Assembly (NCBI GenBank): GCA_963575645.1
Contig: OY754472.1
Coordinates: 32,861,401-32,925,400 of the forward strand
DNA from: Xanthostigma xanthostigma
Taxonomy: Eukaryota > Arthropoda > Insecta > Raphidioptera > Raphidiidae
Reading direction: 5' to 3'
Length of the DNA: 64,000 bases
Shown: piece by piece, positions 8,572 through 57,722 of the stretch
How the letters are laid out: each line of letters begins with the position of its first letter
Position numbering within the stretch: position 1 is the stretch's first letter
Made by a program: the position numbers and the translations under genes
The notes under the pieces: model-generated
The model's input: the letters and a program-made list of their open reading frames with translations, nothing else
What the model was told of the DNA's origin: nothing
Database searches by the model: none

Positions 8572-8945
8572 CAAAAAAGGAGGTTATCAATTCAACGCAT
8601 ACATTTATACTTTCTTGAAAAAGTAAATAGAATAATAAGCCGTTATAAAAAGTATACCATTATTATATAAAAACACCTCTTCTGCGCATGCGCCGATTTT
8701 CCCCAAAAACAACAGGGTTCTACATATTTGCATACCAAATAACCTCCCAAAATTTGATTTCAATCCGCTCATCCGTTTGATCTATATCGTGCTCAGTGCT
8801 CACAGACTAACAGACGCGCAGAGTTTTTCCAAAAATATGTTTTTTTGGATTCGGAGTACCTCAAAACGGAAAGATGTAAAATTTTTGAAAAGTGATTTTT
8901 GACTTAAACCAGTACCATTCCCCACTTGTGGGATGAAGCGAGCCT
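8572..8945 (-). repeat. Interspersed repeat, family V (minus copy)
   Basis: Inverted relative of 48907-49320 and 41044-41920. Shared words include CATTCCCCACTTGTGGG at one end, CTGCGCATGCGCCGATTTTC in the middle and CCATTATTATATAAAAACAC. No coding capacity. The superfamily is not recognised. Confidence 0.8.
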
Positions 8946-24043: not shown

Positions 24044-25845
24044 ATGAAATGTAACAATGAAAAATGAGTGAGAGAGATGGAGCATTTCTGTCACTCATTC
24101 TTCATTGTTACATTTCAGATGGATGCCGAAAAACGTGGAATCCACAGATCCGAAAAAAGAGTCAAAAAAATTGGCTGTCTGTAAAGTCGGTTTACGGACG
24201 ATAGTTTTACGTGATAACATATTCCGCTCGAATATCATATTTAATAATACATAACCTAAATTTTAGTAGCTGTCAAACTATATTTTTACCGACTAATAAT
24301 TTGATCAGCCAAAGCAAAATACATATTTTTAAGCAATTATAAAAGACATTTAAAAGAATGTATATATATTATATATTTGTTAACAAACCGTATAATTTAT
24401 CTGCTGTTTTGAAATGCAGATATCTCCCAAGATTTGTTTTGTTGATACAAAATGTAGCTGCGTTTGTGTACAAACTATCAAATTATTGATCAATACATTT
24501 CCATTCGTTGTGAATAATATCATATTTTATCCATAATGACGGCGATCAGTTATTTTTAACAAAATAAAATGACATTTATTAATTATTATTAGCGCCATAT
24601 TGCCATTTCTCTATCGCTTATACTGCGCTCTCGCTTGCACGCACAGGGTCAGGCGGAGCGTGACACTTTTGGAACGTTACACTTTTTCGTGCGTGCAGCT
24701 GGTGTTTCATCGATTTATAAGACGTTATCACGTCAAAATATTTTAGTAGTGTATAAAACGGTGGATTGGCTAAAGCATTTCGGGGGGGAGGGGTGAACCC
24801 CTAAAACACCCCCCTGCCTACGGCTTTGCGTAGCTCGTCTGCCCGATTTGGTTAGGTACTGAGAGAGTACTGATTCTATATTAGGGCAATGTCAATCACT
24901 GTTGATTGAATGCATTGTTGAAGTTGTTAATCGTTTTTATTAAACACTACAATTCAACTTGTCTTAATCAGTGAAATGGCTAAGAAAACGTTGGCCATCA
25001 ATCTGTTCTGCAAACTTTATCCACTGTTCAAAGTGCTCAATTTTTCACGAACCGAATAACAAATAAATAAAACCGAGAGAGCAGAGCGAGGGCCAGGAAA
25101 TATAGTGTTTGAATAAATACGAAACTAAAAATCAATCTTCACTTTGTGTGAAGCGGCGGAGCTCACGAACGGGGGTCATTATGTAACGTATTGCCAATAT
25201 TGCATGTTGGGGCCGTGACGAAATCGGTAAATCAAGTCGTCGTGCCGCCATTCCTCGACAGTCGACACTGCTAAATGCCACGACGGGAAACAAAGTGTAG
25301 GGCGAACGGTACAATTGTCGCTGCTACAGCTGTTGCTTTTGCATTGTCAATATCGAAATCGAATGTTGGTGTCGTGACGGAATTTGTAAATCAGGTTATC
25401 GTATAGACGCTGTTAAATGTCAACGACTGGAAACGAAGACTTTAGGGTAAACGATACATTTGCTGCTGCTGCGATTCTGGAATAAAGTAAGGCTTTGTTG
25501 CTACTCACACGGTAAATCAAGTAGTCATGGAGACTACTAAATTTTGTGTAGAAATTTCCTCAAAACTGCGTGATCGAAATTTCACAGAATCTGATTGGAC
25601 GCTTGAAACTCGACACAGCAGAACAACCAATCAGCACCAAGGCCGTAGGCGGGGGAGTGGGGATTCACCCCCCTCTCCCGAAACACTTTAGCCAATCCAT
25701 CGTTTTATACATACTACTGAAATATTTTCTCACTCATTTTCGGATCTGTGGATTCCACGTTTTTCGGCATCCATCTGAAATGTAACAATGAAGGATGAGT
25801 GACAGAAATGCTCTATCTCTCTCACTCATCTTTCATTTTTGAAAT
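24044..25845. mobile_element. Long-TIR element (~215-bp TIRs), left TIR interrupted by unit U
   Basis: The left TIR is 24044-24165 plus 24735-24835. The right TIR is 25630-25845 and uninterrupted. Shared words include GAAAAACGTGGAATCCACAG, AACGGTGGATTGGCTAAAGC and CCTACGGC. The outermost 75 bp of each TIR is itself a palindrome (TGAAATGTAACAATGAA and inverse). No transposase is recognised in the interior, so it is probably non-autonomous. A copy of unit U sits in the left TIR. Confidence 0.85.
24173..24734 (-). mobile_element. Unit U, diverged copy inside a TIR
   Basis: Ends match unit U (GGCTGTCTGTAAAGTCGG on the left; TTATAAGACGTTATCACGTC on the right), and CACGCACAGGGTCAGGCGGA is shared, but much of the interior differs. 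The uninterrupted right TIR shows the pre-insertion sequence, so U is the later arrival. Confidence 0.8.
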
Positions 25846-41257: not shown

Positions 41258-41539
41258 TATTATTTCGGTTTGAGGTCCTCCGATTCAAAAAAATATATTT
41301 TTAGAAAAACTCTGTGCGTCTGTTTATTTGTTAGTCATGTGAGCACGATACAGGTCAAACTGATAAACGGATCGAAACCAAATTTTGGAAGGATGTATGA
41401 AGAGCCCTATTATTTTTGGGGACAAGCGGCACATGCGTAGAGGAAATATATGTTATATAACGGTGTTTTTTAGATAATAATGGTATATTTTTCATAACGG
41501 CTTATTATTCTATTTATTTTTTCAAAAAAGTTTCGTTAA

Positions 41540-45045: not shown

Positions 45046-46866
45046 GTTTTTGGAAACATAACTTCATATTCTTAAATTTTAGTTCAGTAAGGATCCATCC
45101 GCCTCTGTATAATTTGGTGACGCTTTTTTTACGACCAGAACGTAAGTTCTTCTCTGTTAGTAGTCTTAAAAGCTGCATTGTGTTTTAAAAATGGTATACT
45201 GCAATACGGTTATGTCAGTAGGAAAAAACTTCGTCAAGATTCGAACGCAGTACTTTCTGATTAATAAGTATCTCTATTACTATTCTATGCTATTTTGCAA
45301 CGTTAGGTGATGATAAAACGATGGCAATTTACAAATTCGGGCGAAATTGGACCGGACCTCTAGTAACTAATATTTTAGGAATGGTGTCCAGTGATACGTT
45401 CATGCTTAATTTAATATGAAATAGTGGACAATAGATGGAGCTGACATAATTAAATGTTGTAAGTAAGGTTAGAATTAGAACAAATGTTCTTCAGAACAAT
45501 GATATGCATAAAACCACCACAAGCCGTCTTCTATGAATGGTTTGTGGCTATGGATTTAATTAGAGAACTTTCTCAACATTAAATAACAGTGCTTACCGAA
45601 AGTGAATACAGCCTACTATGCGTACTGACTGGGTTTTATGCCAAAAATACAAAAAAAAAATTCCAGCCAATTGAGCGGCGGGACCATTCCAACTACAAAA
45701 ATACTGACATTTGATATATTACAATAAAGAAAAAAAAATCCGTGTGTGTAAAAAATTAATAAATCGATAACGTAAAAGAGATTTCGAAAATGTAAAAAAA
45801 TATGTCGCTATTTGAAAAAAAAATGCATGTACCTACATTGTACACATCCAGTTGAGTGTGAAATACAAAAAAATATACCTCAGCAATTTCCGATAATAAC
45901 TATTTAAACTTTTTTGTATCGCGAATTTACCATTACCACTTTCGGTGAAAGCACTGTGTATATATAATTGTTTTTGTCAATTTAAAAAAATTATCGCAAA
46001 AAAATTAACACACAATATAAATTTCAAATTATGGTGGAGGTACAATGAGCTATGGTGGAAGTGCGGGTATAAATTTTAATGAATAATATTTACAATTTCT
46101 ACGATGAGACAAATTTGTTTTAAATTATGACTTATTAAAGTTACTATAATATTATGAACATAATGTTCATATTACGGCTTAAAACAAAATTAGCCGCACC
46201 GCAGAAATGGTAAATTGATTTATTCCTAAGCGCCCAATTTGTACGTTAGCGAAACAGTTACTCAAGCTTCCTTTGATCAAACTGATTGAAAACAAGACTA
46301 GTCTCTTACGCTATTAAGTATAGTGAAGATGACATTATCACAGAAATAGGTATAGGTTGTTTCGGGTTCAAGTCCCGACAGTGACATTTAAATTTTTCTT
46401 ATATATAAGCCTTGTAAAAATATTATGTCGATAATCGTTTAATATTATGCTTTCACTAATTCAGTGAAAAAATTTGCTGTATACTGGAATTTAATCGTAA
46501 TGATTATTATTAGCCGTAAGGTATAGTTTTATCAGTGAAAATATCCCTAGATCCAGGGGATTTCAGACAGGTTTAGAGAAAATCTGAAATGTTTACTGAT
46601 ATTTGCTAAAATAGTTCTAGCAGTTTCACGTTTGAGTGTTGTATTTCTTAATACTTTAAAATTTTTTAAACATGTATAACAAGGACACAATGATGGATGG
46701 ATTGATGGAACTAGAAGTAGGGTTACTTAATGATAAAAATAAACTTACATTATATATTTTTTTTTCTCTTTCCTATTGTATATACATACATTTTGTAATT
46801 ATACATGTAACTGTTTTTTTGTTATGCTAATGGCTTTTGCCGAAGCATTTTTTTCAAAAAAAAAAT
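45046..46866. other. Mostly unassigned; two weak pol III-like boxes
   Basis: No gene. AGATTCGAACGCAGTACTTT near 45238 and CGGGTTCAAGTCCCGACAGT near 46365 look like tRNA T arms without the rest. 45655-45700 (CCAGCCAATTGAGCGGCGGG) is inverted at 49808-49845, so it belongs to a dispersed repeat. Confidence 0.45.
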
Positions 46867-47270
46867 GGTTGTCTGTAAAGTCGGTTTACGGACGATAGTT
46901 TTACGTGATAACGTATTCCGTAATACATAACCTAAACCTCCCAAAATTTGGTTTCAATCCGCTTATCCTTGGTGTCGGAATGATAAGAAATGTCAAAAGT
47001 GACGTTTGCAACTTACAAAGTATTATGTTCTAATAATAATTAGTTATTCCAATACTTAACTTAGCAGGCTTTGCATTTCACAATATACTAATGTCAAAAA
47101 ATTGAATTAAACATTAGAAATGCAGCTGTTTTCATGTTAAGACAAGACATACGTTTGCTTCTAATTTCCATGTACGGCAAACAAAGACAACCGACCGCGT
47201 CGCGTCATGCATTACACAACATTGCATTTATACAGCTATTTTTCTATATAAATTTGTATAAAATATTTTT

Positions 47271-47965
47271 GACGTGATAACGTCTTATAAATTGATGAAT
47301 CACCAATATTATAAATTGATAAAACACCGGCTGCATGTTCGAAAAAGTGTAACGTAACGTTCCTAACGCGTAACGTTCCTAACGCGTAACGTTCCTAACG
47401 CGTAACGTTCCGCCTGACCCTGTGCGTGCTTTTTGCTAATTTCTCGCTCAATTTAAATCAGATCGGTTTGAAACCAGTCTTAAACGAAAGAGGAGAACAT
47501 TTTACATAGATTTCGTATAACAGAATTTGCCTAAACAGTTTTTTTATACAAATTTATATAGAAAAATATTTTATACAAATTTATATAGAAAAATAGCTGT
47601 ATAAATGCAATGTTGTGTAATGCATGACGCGACGCGGTCGGTTGTCTTTGTTTGCCGTACATGGAAATTAGAAGCAAACGTATGTCTTGTCTTAACATGA
47701 AAACAGCTGCATTTCTAATGTTTAATTCAATTTTTTGACATTAGTATATTGTGAAATGCAAAGCCTGCTAAGTTAAGTATTGGAATAACTAATTATTATT
47801 AGAACATAATACTTTGTAAGTTGCAAACGTCACTTTTGACATTTCTTATCATTCCGACACCAAGGATAAGCGGATTGAAACCAAATTTTGGGAGGTTTAG
47901 GTTATGTATTACGGAATACGTTATCACGTAAAACTATCGTCCGTAAACCGACTTTACAGACAACC
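47271..47965 (+). mobile_element. Unit U (inner, plus), inserted in the outer copy
   Basis: Starts GACGTGATAACGTCTTATAA and ends CGACTTTACAGACAACC. Both ends carry ACGTGATAACGT in inverted orientation but at different distances from the end. It lies between ATATTTTT and ATTTTTTT, a diverged or slipped duplication. It contains a 16-bp tandem repeat (47346-47412) and a doubled 27-bp A/T-rich word near 47540. No coding region. Superfamily not recognised. Confidence 0.88.
47346..47412 (+). repeat. 16-bp tandem repeat in unit U, ~4 copies
   Basis: GTAACGTTCCTAACGC repeats three times and then GTAACGTTCC. The outer copy has about one unit and the 56.5-kb copy a scrambled version, so the array varies between copies. 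Confidence 0.93.
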
Positions 47966-48232
47966 ATTTTTTTCTATATAAATTTGTATAAAAAAACTGT
48001 TTAGGCAAATTCTGTTATACGAAATCTATGTAAAATGTTCTCCTCTTTCGTTTAAGACTGGTTTCAAACCGATCTGATTTAAATTGAGCGAGAAATTAGC
48101 AAAAAGCACGCACAGGGTCATGCGGAACGTTACGCGTTAGGAACGTTACGTTACACTTTTTCGAACATGCAGCCGGTGTTTTATCAATTTATAATATTGG
48201 TGATTCATCAATTTATAAGACGTTATCACGTC

Positions 48233-48906
48233 AAAAAAAAATAATAAACTCTTGATTTATAAAAATTTTCGTTTAGTATGCGGCACTGTTACACATCTTG
48301 TGGAAGGGACTAACAGCCGTCTTGTACACCAGACTTTTGTGATTGGGCTGTCTCAAGGTCAATGAAATTGTTGACTTAAGATCAAAGTGCCGACAGAGAG
48401 TGCAGTTTCTAGATATATGCTATGCTCTTAAAGAGGTTGGGTAGGCACTTTTGCAGGGAAAACTCTATGCTTATACACAAGCCTCCTAATTTTATATATG
48501 GTTGCCATTTACTTATTGAGAATTTATGTAAAACTCACCAAATCGGGATTTTTGTGTTTTATTTAATTTGTTTTCTCATTACTAGTACAGGGAAAAATTC
48601 TAGTTTTTTTCTATTAATTTTGAAAACGCATATTTTAGAGTATAGTTATTTTTTAAATTTTCCTATCAGGACTTATATTTGATTTTATGAATTTTCTGTT
48701 GTTTTATGTCACTATTTCATTGACTGTTACTGGATTGCATGTATTAAAAATATATTTTTGAATTTTATTTTTTCAAAAATGAGACTGTCCATAGTGATCA
48801 AAATTTGAGATATGATGTATATCTCTCTGAAATTTTAAGAAATTTTTATAATTTTCAACTTTTGACCCAATCATTTTAAGCGACACAAACGTGACTCGAG
48901 TTTTAC
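48233..48906. other. Unassigned sequence
   Basis: No gene. An 86-codon frame at 48422 has no known motif. Confidence 0.4.
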
Positions 48907-49320
48907 TATTCCAACCGACAAGTGGAGAATGGTACTTACTAGTTTAGGTCAAAAATCACTTTTCGTTTTGAGGTCCCCCTAATCCAAAAAACATATTTTT
49001 GAAAAAACTCTGTGTGTCTGTTAGTCTGTTTGTCTCTTAGTCTATTAGACTCTGAACACGATACAGGTCAAACGGATGAGCGGATTGAAACCAAATTTTG
49101 GGAGGATGTTTGGTATGCAAATATGAAGTTCCCTATTGTTTTTGGGGAAAATCGGCGCATGCGCAGAAGAGATATATGCTATAACGGTGTTTTTTATATA
49201 ATAATGGTATACTTTTCAGAACGAATTATTATTTAATTTATTTTTCAAGAAAGTTTTGTTAAATTTTTTTTTTCTAAACTTTGTAATTTCAAAAATAGCA
49301 AATATCATATTGAATACTAG
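48907..49320 (+). repeat. Family V, uninterrupted plus copy
   Basis: Starts TTCCAACCGACAAGTGGAGA, with CGGATTGAAACCAAATTTTG and GGAAAATCGGCGCATGCGCA inside. It serves as the empty-site reference for the two MITEs nested in 41044-41920. Confidence 0.85.
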
Positions 49321-56211: not shown

Positions 56212-56357
56212 AACAGAATCAAACTTAACTTTATTACAAAGTTAGAATTATAATCATAACCTGTAGTTTTTGTTTAAATGCTACATAAATTAAGTAATAA
56301 AAGAAAATATGGAAAGTTCACATAATATATCGCATAAAAAAATTACTAAAAAATTGA

Positions 56358-56484
56358 CTTTTTGACATTGAAAATTTTCCAGAAAAATATAGTAGAAAAT
56401 TTGCCGAAAAATTTTCCACGAAAAACTTTGCAATATGGAAAATTTTCTACTATATTTTTCCGGAAAATTTTCAATGTCAAAAAG
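56358..56484. repeat. Hairpin, ~47-bp arms, beside unit U
   Basis: CTTTTTGACATTGAAAATTT and the following bases to 56404 pair with 56438-56484 with only a few mismatches. Unit U starts 10 bases further on. Confidence 0.9.
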
Positions 56485-56493
56485 ACAATTTTT

Positions 56494-57148
56494 GACGTGA
56501 TAACGTCTTATAAATTGATGAATCACCAATTTTATAAATTGATAAAACACCGGCTGCATGCACGAAAAAGTGTAACGGTCGTAACGTTCCTAACATTCGT
56601 AACGCGTAACGCGTAACGTTCCGCCTGACCCTGTGCGTGCTTTTTGCTAATTTCTCGCTCAATTTAAATCAGATCGGTTTGAAACCAGTCTTAAACGAAA
56701 GAGGAGAACATTTTACATAGATTTCGTATAACAGAATTTGCCTAAACAGTTTTTTTATACAAATTTATATAGAAAAATAGCTGTATAAAATATAAATGCA
56801 ATGTTGTCTAATGCATGGCGCGACGCGGTCGGTCGTCTTTGTTTGCCGTACATGGAAATTAGAAGCAAACGTATGTCTTGTCTTAACATGAAAACGGCTG
56901 CATTTCTAATGTTTAATTCAATTTTTTGACATTAGTATATTGTGAAATGCAAAGCCTGCTAAGTTAAGTATTGGAATAACTAATTATTATTAGAACATAA
57001 TACTTTGACAGTTGCAAACGTCACTTTTGACATTTCTTATCATTCCGATTAAGCGGATTGAAACCAAATTTTGGGAGGTTTAGGTTATGTATTACGGAAT
57101 ACGTTATCACGTAAAACTATCGTCCGTAAACCGACTTTACAGACAACC
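56494..57148 (+). mobile_element. Unit U, uninterrupted copy
   Basis: The reference copy, 655 bp: GACGTGATAACG at the start, CCTGACCCTGTGCGTGC and CGACGCGGTCGGTCGTCTTT inside, and CGACTTTACAGACAACC at the end. Flanks are CAATTTTT and AATTTTTT, an A/T-rich near-duplication. Non-coding. Confidence 0.88.
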
Positions 57149-57722
57149 AATTTTTTTAATAAAGTATTTTTTTCCCGTGGAAACTACTTTCAAGTCGCGC
57201 CTAAAGAAATTTTACTTAAAAAATTACAAATAGACATAAGCGGTTTTGCTTTCAGTCTACAGATATAATATCTTTGACCACCATGCACTGTTGTTGTACA
57301 GTAAAATCTCATTATTTGTGATCATATTGTGTTTACTTGCTTTGTGCATAGAAGGAAGGTTATGCAACATCAGGAAGGAAAAAGTAATATAAAAAGACCA
57401 GTGTTTGAGTACATAGGGTCCTTCACTTTGAACTGTTTGCACGAAGTTGTTTGTTTAAAAAAGTATATGGAAGGATAGAACATTGCACTGTACAAACGGC
57501 CGCTGCTTGCATGCTTTCTTTGCACACAGACAATGATTTTTCTTCTTTTTTCGTTTCACCCAAATCTACATAGAGATACGTAGTGTAGAGAGATACATAC
57601 GACGAGTTCTTTTCCTATATACGTTGGCACTTTTTAAAGTAAAACTTCTTATGCGGCATCTCGTCGATTTGGATGAATGAAGTGATAAACACTGACACAA
57701 ACGAGTGACGACGACTGTTACC
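57149..57722. other. Unassigned sequence
   Basis: No gene or structured repeat seen. Confidence 0.4.

Follow-up and report, generated by a model that had tools for sequence, protein, structure and literature searches.

The window analyzed here is a stretch of 64,000 nucleotides of the Xanthostigma xanthostigma genome (G000:C9:32861401-32925400), and the genome searched comprised 623 Mb in 28 contigs. When the interval 46867-48232 was aligned to the repeat unit U, whose reference copy stands alone on the plus strand at 56494..57150 (reference match 56494-57148), it was found to be a minus copy of U interrupted by a complete copy of the same unit on the plus strand, as the preliminary description of a repeat lying inside an inverted copy of itself had stated. 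The 3' part of the outer copy occupies 46866..47265 on the minus strand (46867-47263 matching U 260-655). Its terminal A is at 46866, an end that agrees with those of the other family copies, and its own 3' T-tract, which appears as As on the plus strand, lies directly to the left. The complete inner copy is located on the plus strand at 47271..47966 (47271-47965 matching U 1-655), ends as other copies do and was inserted in a T5 tract of the outer copy, at 47266-47270. The 5' part of the outer copy is found at 47974..48232, again on the minus strand (47969-48232 matching U 1-284). The inverted arms of this nest are 100% identical over 404-412 bp.

An inverted word offset from the termini had been noticed near both ends, and a word search gave its exact positions: ACGTGATAACGT / ACGTTATCACGT occurs at 46903, 47272, 47918, 48220, 56495 and 57101. 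In the outer copy, this exact word forms the subterminal repeat near the 5' end (48220..48231, minus strand) and its partner at 46903-46914; in the inner copy, the pair is placed at 47272-47283 and 47918-47929. For U, the exact 12-bp pair lies 1 nt inside the 5' GACG on one side and about 43 nt short of the 3' terminus on the other. This agrees with non-autonomous Helentrons (HINEs), in which repeats of at least 11 bp are separated from the 5' end by a few nt and from the 3' end by about 38-60 bp. U also contains a 23-nt palindrome about 11 nt from its 3' end, within the 8-35 bp from the 3' terminus that characterize HINEs. In the outer copy, the corresponding hairpin (46871..46893, minus strand; 9 bp with one G-T) was read from the sequence and from folding, and its counterparts lie in the inner copy (47939-47961) and in U (57122-57144). 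Folding of the hairpin gave a z value of -3.08 on one strand and of -0.90 on the element's own strand, while the whole 3' region of U (z -0.41) folded no better than chance. The poor folding on the element's own strand and of the whole 3' region counts against the Helentron reading.

Two internal features were located, both with approximate limits. A 16-bp tandem array, which had been said to vary between units, extends over 47355..47411 on the plus strand in the inner copy and over about 48123-48151 in the outer copy, where it is shorter; the alignment gives a difference of ~32 bp. The inner copy carries a doubled 27-bp word (47543..47596, plus strand), as first described. The outer copy had the same doubling, and its two words are now separated, the tract entered by the inner copy being the junction between them. 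Two ORFs of at least 110 aa were found in the window; neither U locus contains an ORF of this length, in line with the lack of coding capacity of HINEs. An imperfect palindrome (82%) was also observed at 56336-56493, directly before the solo copy of U.

The genome-wide search with U that had been proposed yielded both the true ends of the family and a long coding relative. Fifty-three end pairs were collected (L001-L050), two of which are overlapping spans in the L017 array, while L045 and L047 have common flanks. All start with GACGTGATAACGTC, preceded in 53 of 53 cases by at least two Ts, and finish with CAACC or a close variant, followed by AA (50/53) or A (3/53) and then mostly by Ts. The 52-base 3' end of U occurs 24,872 times (12,524 + 12,348) with at most three mismatches in the 623 Mb, and its reversed control gave 0 matches. 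Among 39 main-type copies, which had matched the query best and are hence biased towards similarity, the median pairwise difference was 0.6% (741 pairs, two of them identical). At L024, a U copy was seen between two inverted flanks that resemble the arms of a palindromic repeat. The IMG/VR viral contigs searched contained no U-type end. Text searches of the literature gave 0 papers for the 12-bp terminal word, and 0 papers for HELIANO/HLE2 (a newer naming) together with Helentron.

The subterminal palindromes, the 3' hairpin, the 16-bp array and the insertion in T-tracts allow a class to be assigned to this repeat, which had been left as an unrecognised superfamily: to judge from its sequence, U is a non-autonomous Helentron. 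These are among the marks given for HINEs in passages of PMC4067079, namely palindromic subterminal repeats, a 3' palindrome, tandem repeats and T-rich targets. A canonical Helitron, inserted between A and T and ending in CTRR, was rejected, as U inserts in T-tracts and ends in CAACC followed by A or AA and T. A TIR transposon or MITE was also rejected, as the repeats of U are unequally offset from the ends and are accompanied by no duplication of fixed length. U would represent a new HINE family, likened to the published ones by description.

A coding relic places the family further. Searching the genome with the profile PF14214 gave 89 matches, and in six of the strongest the motif was read and is GLPH, the canonical Helitron type. 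A weaker match, at C5:10939605-10940093 on the minus strand, is enclosed by two U-type ends in the same orientation, which delimit about 7.1 kb (C5:10936.3-10943.5 kb). The 5' end of this element, at C5:10943472, is identical to U at 22 of 22 positions (the BLAST match extends over 41 bp at 97.6%, seven of them being flanking A/T), and its 3' end is identical over 56 of 56 bp, or 57 of the last 60. It thus has the exact subterminal repeats and the identity of at least 80% over the last 60 bp expected of a partner; it is, however, broken. Its Rep domain carries the Helentron motif GSPH (PF14214, 7.8e-25) and is accompanied by a piece of PIF1 helicase (2.5e-16) in a separate frame, so that both Rep and PIF1 are represented. 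The reading frame is interrupted by stops, the helicase is broken and a stretch that resembles an endonuclease remnant to the eye matches no Pfam family at E up to 1; the hallmark domain of Helentrons is thus at best putative in the U family, a further point against the Helentron reading. The 3' part of the relic also contains a HINE of about 250 bp in the opposite direction (L097, about C5:10937.1-10937.3 kb).

With the Rep domain of the relic as query, 31 matches were obtained in the genome; besides the relic itself, the best ones showed 35% identity along most of the length, and one broken place (C1:36932620-36933863) reached 44-45%. A working enzyme source with U-type ends was not found in the genome; the relic, itself broken, is the sole coding element that turned up with such ends. 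The relic places the family and is unlikely to be its present source of enzyme.

Several other Rep elements were considered as partners and rejected. Four Helentron-type families, A (L081, L090), B (L082, L083, L091), C (L086, L087, L092) and D (L084, L085), as well as the Rep element G (L088, L089, L093), have no U-type end of their own in the stretches read; in families A and C, tandem arrays reach the edge of the stretch and the 3' ends lie beyond it. L096 and L101, beside two further matches, are also devoid of U-type ends, and the one end match at L095 (six mismatches) was taken as chance. For the canonical Helitron group (30 loci, L051-L080), the search for U ends extended about 1.5 kb from the Rep domain and gave none. 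Apart from the question of a partner, this group comprises many near-identical Rep matches whose open frames measure about 1,555 aa, and three canonical Rep matches about 24 kb apart were noted on a small contig (C16:25398, 49277, 74286). A separate short U-type copy is present in L088. In Helentron A, a 2,139-aa open frame (L081:3336-9755, minus strand) combines Rep, PIF1, DUF6570 and a ubiquitin-hydrolase domain and is followed by a 273-bp array; 63-bp repeats occur in L082, L084 and L090.

Part of the interior of U resembles another repeat. About 440 bp are 74% identical to part of a high-copy repeat, V (L083:732-1161), which lies beside Helentron B and adjoins repeats of about 124 bp; the 40 copies of V scored, out of 3,318 first-look candidates, were all 99-100% identical. 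U therefore looks like Helentron ends placed around an interior common to another repeat. Short pieces of V were seen in the window at 8741-8769, 41364-41392 and 49079-49105. A second high-copy HINE family, F2 (24171..24734, minus strand), has the ends of U with a different interior, and the 40 matches scored out of 2,055 first-look candidates were 92-100% identical in 40 of 40 cases.

The preliminary description had pointed to an exact 10-base repeat flanking the outer copy, which would suit a MITE that moves by cut and paste, has inverted repeats and duplicates 10 bp of its target site. The exact match does exist, AAAAAAAAAT being present at 46857-46866 and 48233-48242, and inverted ACGTGATAACGT words are indeed found in the element. 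The 10-base repeat, however, seems to be no target-site duplication, since it is an A/T run, composed of an A/T tract with the terminal A of the element on one side and a host A on the other. Among 41 copies, the apparent flanking repeats vary from 1 to 10 bp; those of at least 5 bp (33/41 copies) consist only of A and T in all but one case (L031), and the repeat of the nest is the longest of this kind, a length of 10 being likewise reached among the 41 copies. At nine filled sites, comparison with an unfilled paralogue or with an unfilled tract of the family itself revealed no duplication of fixed length. The excess of Ts was 5 at L004, L011, L099 and the L017 array (where the count is ambiguous, with two openings and one G counted as T), 7 at L030, the window F2 (whose paralogue, at 87% identity, deviates next to the tract) and the window nest, 8 at L098 and 10 or 11 at L022. 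Of 22 spanning matches, those of L008, L024, L031 and L033, the weaker ones of L022 and two inside the L017 array were passed over, being diverged or devoid of a clean tract. Furthermore, the length of the T-run on the left shows no correlation with that on the right (n 51, rho 0.12, p 0.38), the inverted words lie unequally inside the ends, and the coding relic is a Rep-helicase. A MITE is thus highly improbable. Insertion in T-rich sites, with TT or more at 53 of 53 ends and no target-site duplication of fixed length at the nine sites, is what is expected of a HINE. As no fixed duplication was seen at these sites, U probably carries about five Ts at its own 3' end, as reported for HINEs; with an excess ranging from 5 to 11, part of the T-tract could conceivably also be duplicated to a variable extent.

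The X-Y-X'-Y' layout is likewise real, and the question was whether the composite spreads whole as a transposable unit. The exact opposite-direction junction occurs three times in the genome, against 2,524 unfilled doubled-word tracts (0.12%), and the corresponding junction at the other T5 tract occurs eight times. At L098 and L099, the layout is the same as in the window (minus half, plus copy, minus half), so that an exact junction and a layout are common to three loci, as a mobile composite would require. However, two subtypes, P and Q, which differ at 15-16 positions in about 400 (0-2 within a subtype), are combined differently as inner and outer copies (P in P, Q in P and P in Q), and the closing T-runs count 5, 7 and 8. 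These combinations show independent insertions into one favoured tract; the layout thus requires no special mechanism, and the composite is not mobile as a whole. A transposable composite is accordingly given very little credit, even though gene conversion could in principle rearrange nests and mask their common origin. The identity of the arms over 404-412 bp, in a nest known here from the assembly alone, could also betray a false or collapsed palindrome. Against this, the inner copy of L099, at another locus, is just as identical to the outer arm of the window (0 differences of 404), which points to youth of the arms and not to special homogenisation. As two other nests with different subtypes were assembled in the same layout elsewhere, a one-off fault is unlikely, and an artefact of assembly is hardly to be expected. 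Active targeting of its own copies by the element is improbable as well, if less so. At the T7 tract of U, 115 opening and 99 closing junctions in the same direction were counted genome-wide against 6,318 unfilled tracts; the openings amount to 1.8%, about three times the rough expectation. When only complete nests are considered (37 on C1-C9, against ~5,200 tracts scaled by length from the 6,318), the proportion is about 0.7% versus an expected 0.5%, and for the T5 tract, 3 in 2,524 (0.12%) compares with an expected value of about 0.1%. The expected fill rates (0.5% for T-runs of at least 7 and 0.1% for runs of 5-6) are hand estimates from the T-run density of the window, the copy number and five sites not chosen as nests (2/5 in runs of at least 7, 1/5 in runs of 5-6). 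Given these rough figures, the frequency of nests roughly fits ordinary T-tract targeting and self-targeting is not needed, although there may be a modest preference for own copies.

We thus consider, with high confidence, that 46867-48232 represents a young, high-copy HINE inserted in the T5 tract of an oppositely oriented copy of itself. By analogy with what is known of Helentrons, a Rep-helicase(-endonuclease) supplied in trans would nick the 5' end between T and GACGTG, one strand would be displaced by rolling-circle replication, and replication would halt at the 3' hairpin, after which the strand would be pasted into a T-rich site, between Ts. The inverted nest would then be a by-product of T-tract targeting, the many copies of the element themselves supplying many T-tracts.

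Same-direction nests were examined for pairing on C1-C9, where both junction lists are complete, a partner being accepted within 4 kb. There, 37 of 99 opening junctions were paired and 62 unpaired; for closing junctions, the numbers were 36 and 51 of 87. Exact patterns were used, and mutated partners may be missed. Unpaired junctions could result from re-mobilisation, from recombination between direct repeats in place or from such missed partners. When a single founder was considered, T5 at the opening was found in 24 of 37 paired and in 44 of 62 unpaired junctions on C1-C9, without difference (p 0.65), which speaks against a single re-mobilised founder or, at the least, does not favour one. 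At C8:32628000-32632300 (L100, L017), an array was observed that consists of a 5' half, a second 5' half, two full copies and one 3' half, with two openings and one closing. For Fusarium Helitrons, PMC5148889 proposes that the copying of nests leads to units with several 5' ends and one 3' end. It is conceivable, but rather doubtful, that self-nests of U serve as raw material and are relaunched as double-headed or double-tailed units. The enzyme would either begin at the outer 5' end and halt at the inner 3' end, or begin at the inner 5' end and run through to the outer 3' end. If this is true, the surplus of unpaired junctions would be a genome-scale record of rolling-circle start and stop sites.

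With the reading as a self-nested HINE, a repeat whose ends number about 25,000 in a 623-Mb genome can be named, and the false lead of a 10-bp duplication and a special palindrome is dismissed. The near-identical copies provide a natural data set on the start, stop and insertion sites of Helentrons, and the family is a case for the persistence of a passenger swarm with one broken coding element found.

The literature considered on HINEs and nested Helitrons comprised PMC4067079, PMC7492417, PMC5148889 and PMC4344730, and the systems nearest to U in it are the following. HINE-Mo of a mite and HINE-Cq of Culex resemble U in their palindromic subterminal repeats, 3' palindrome and internal tandem repeats, in their T-rich target with at least two flanking Ts, a variable number of Ts and no modification of the target site, and in having a partner Helentron with the same ends (PMC4067079). 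They differ in that the interior of U is common to another repeat family, U not being a simple deletion derivative, and in that U is high-copy with one broken copy as the sole coding element found. DINE-1 / INE-1 of Drosophila shares with U the subterminal inverted repeats, the 3' stem-loop, the TT preference and a very high copy number; unlike U, it has an extra internal repeat, a conserved core and subterminal repeats that are not themselves palindromic (PMC4067079). Cg_HINE of the Pacific oyster is likewise built as a non-autonomous Helentron with tandem repeats at its centre, but it carries satellite-like arrays as well as a microsatellite adjoining an inverted repeat, whereas U has only a short 16-bp array (PMC7492417). 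As with U, FoHeli Helitron2 elements of Fusarium are nested in relatives of their own, and units bearing additional 5' ends are described (PMC5148889). FoHeli1 and 2 insert next to TNAT with an invariant number of Ts, unlike U, and their nests are few, whereas those of U amount to over a hundred junctions at one tract (PMC5148889).
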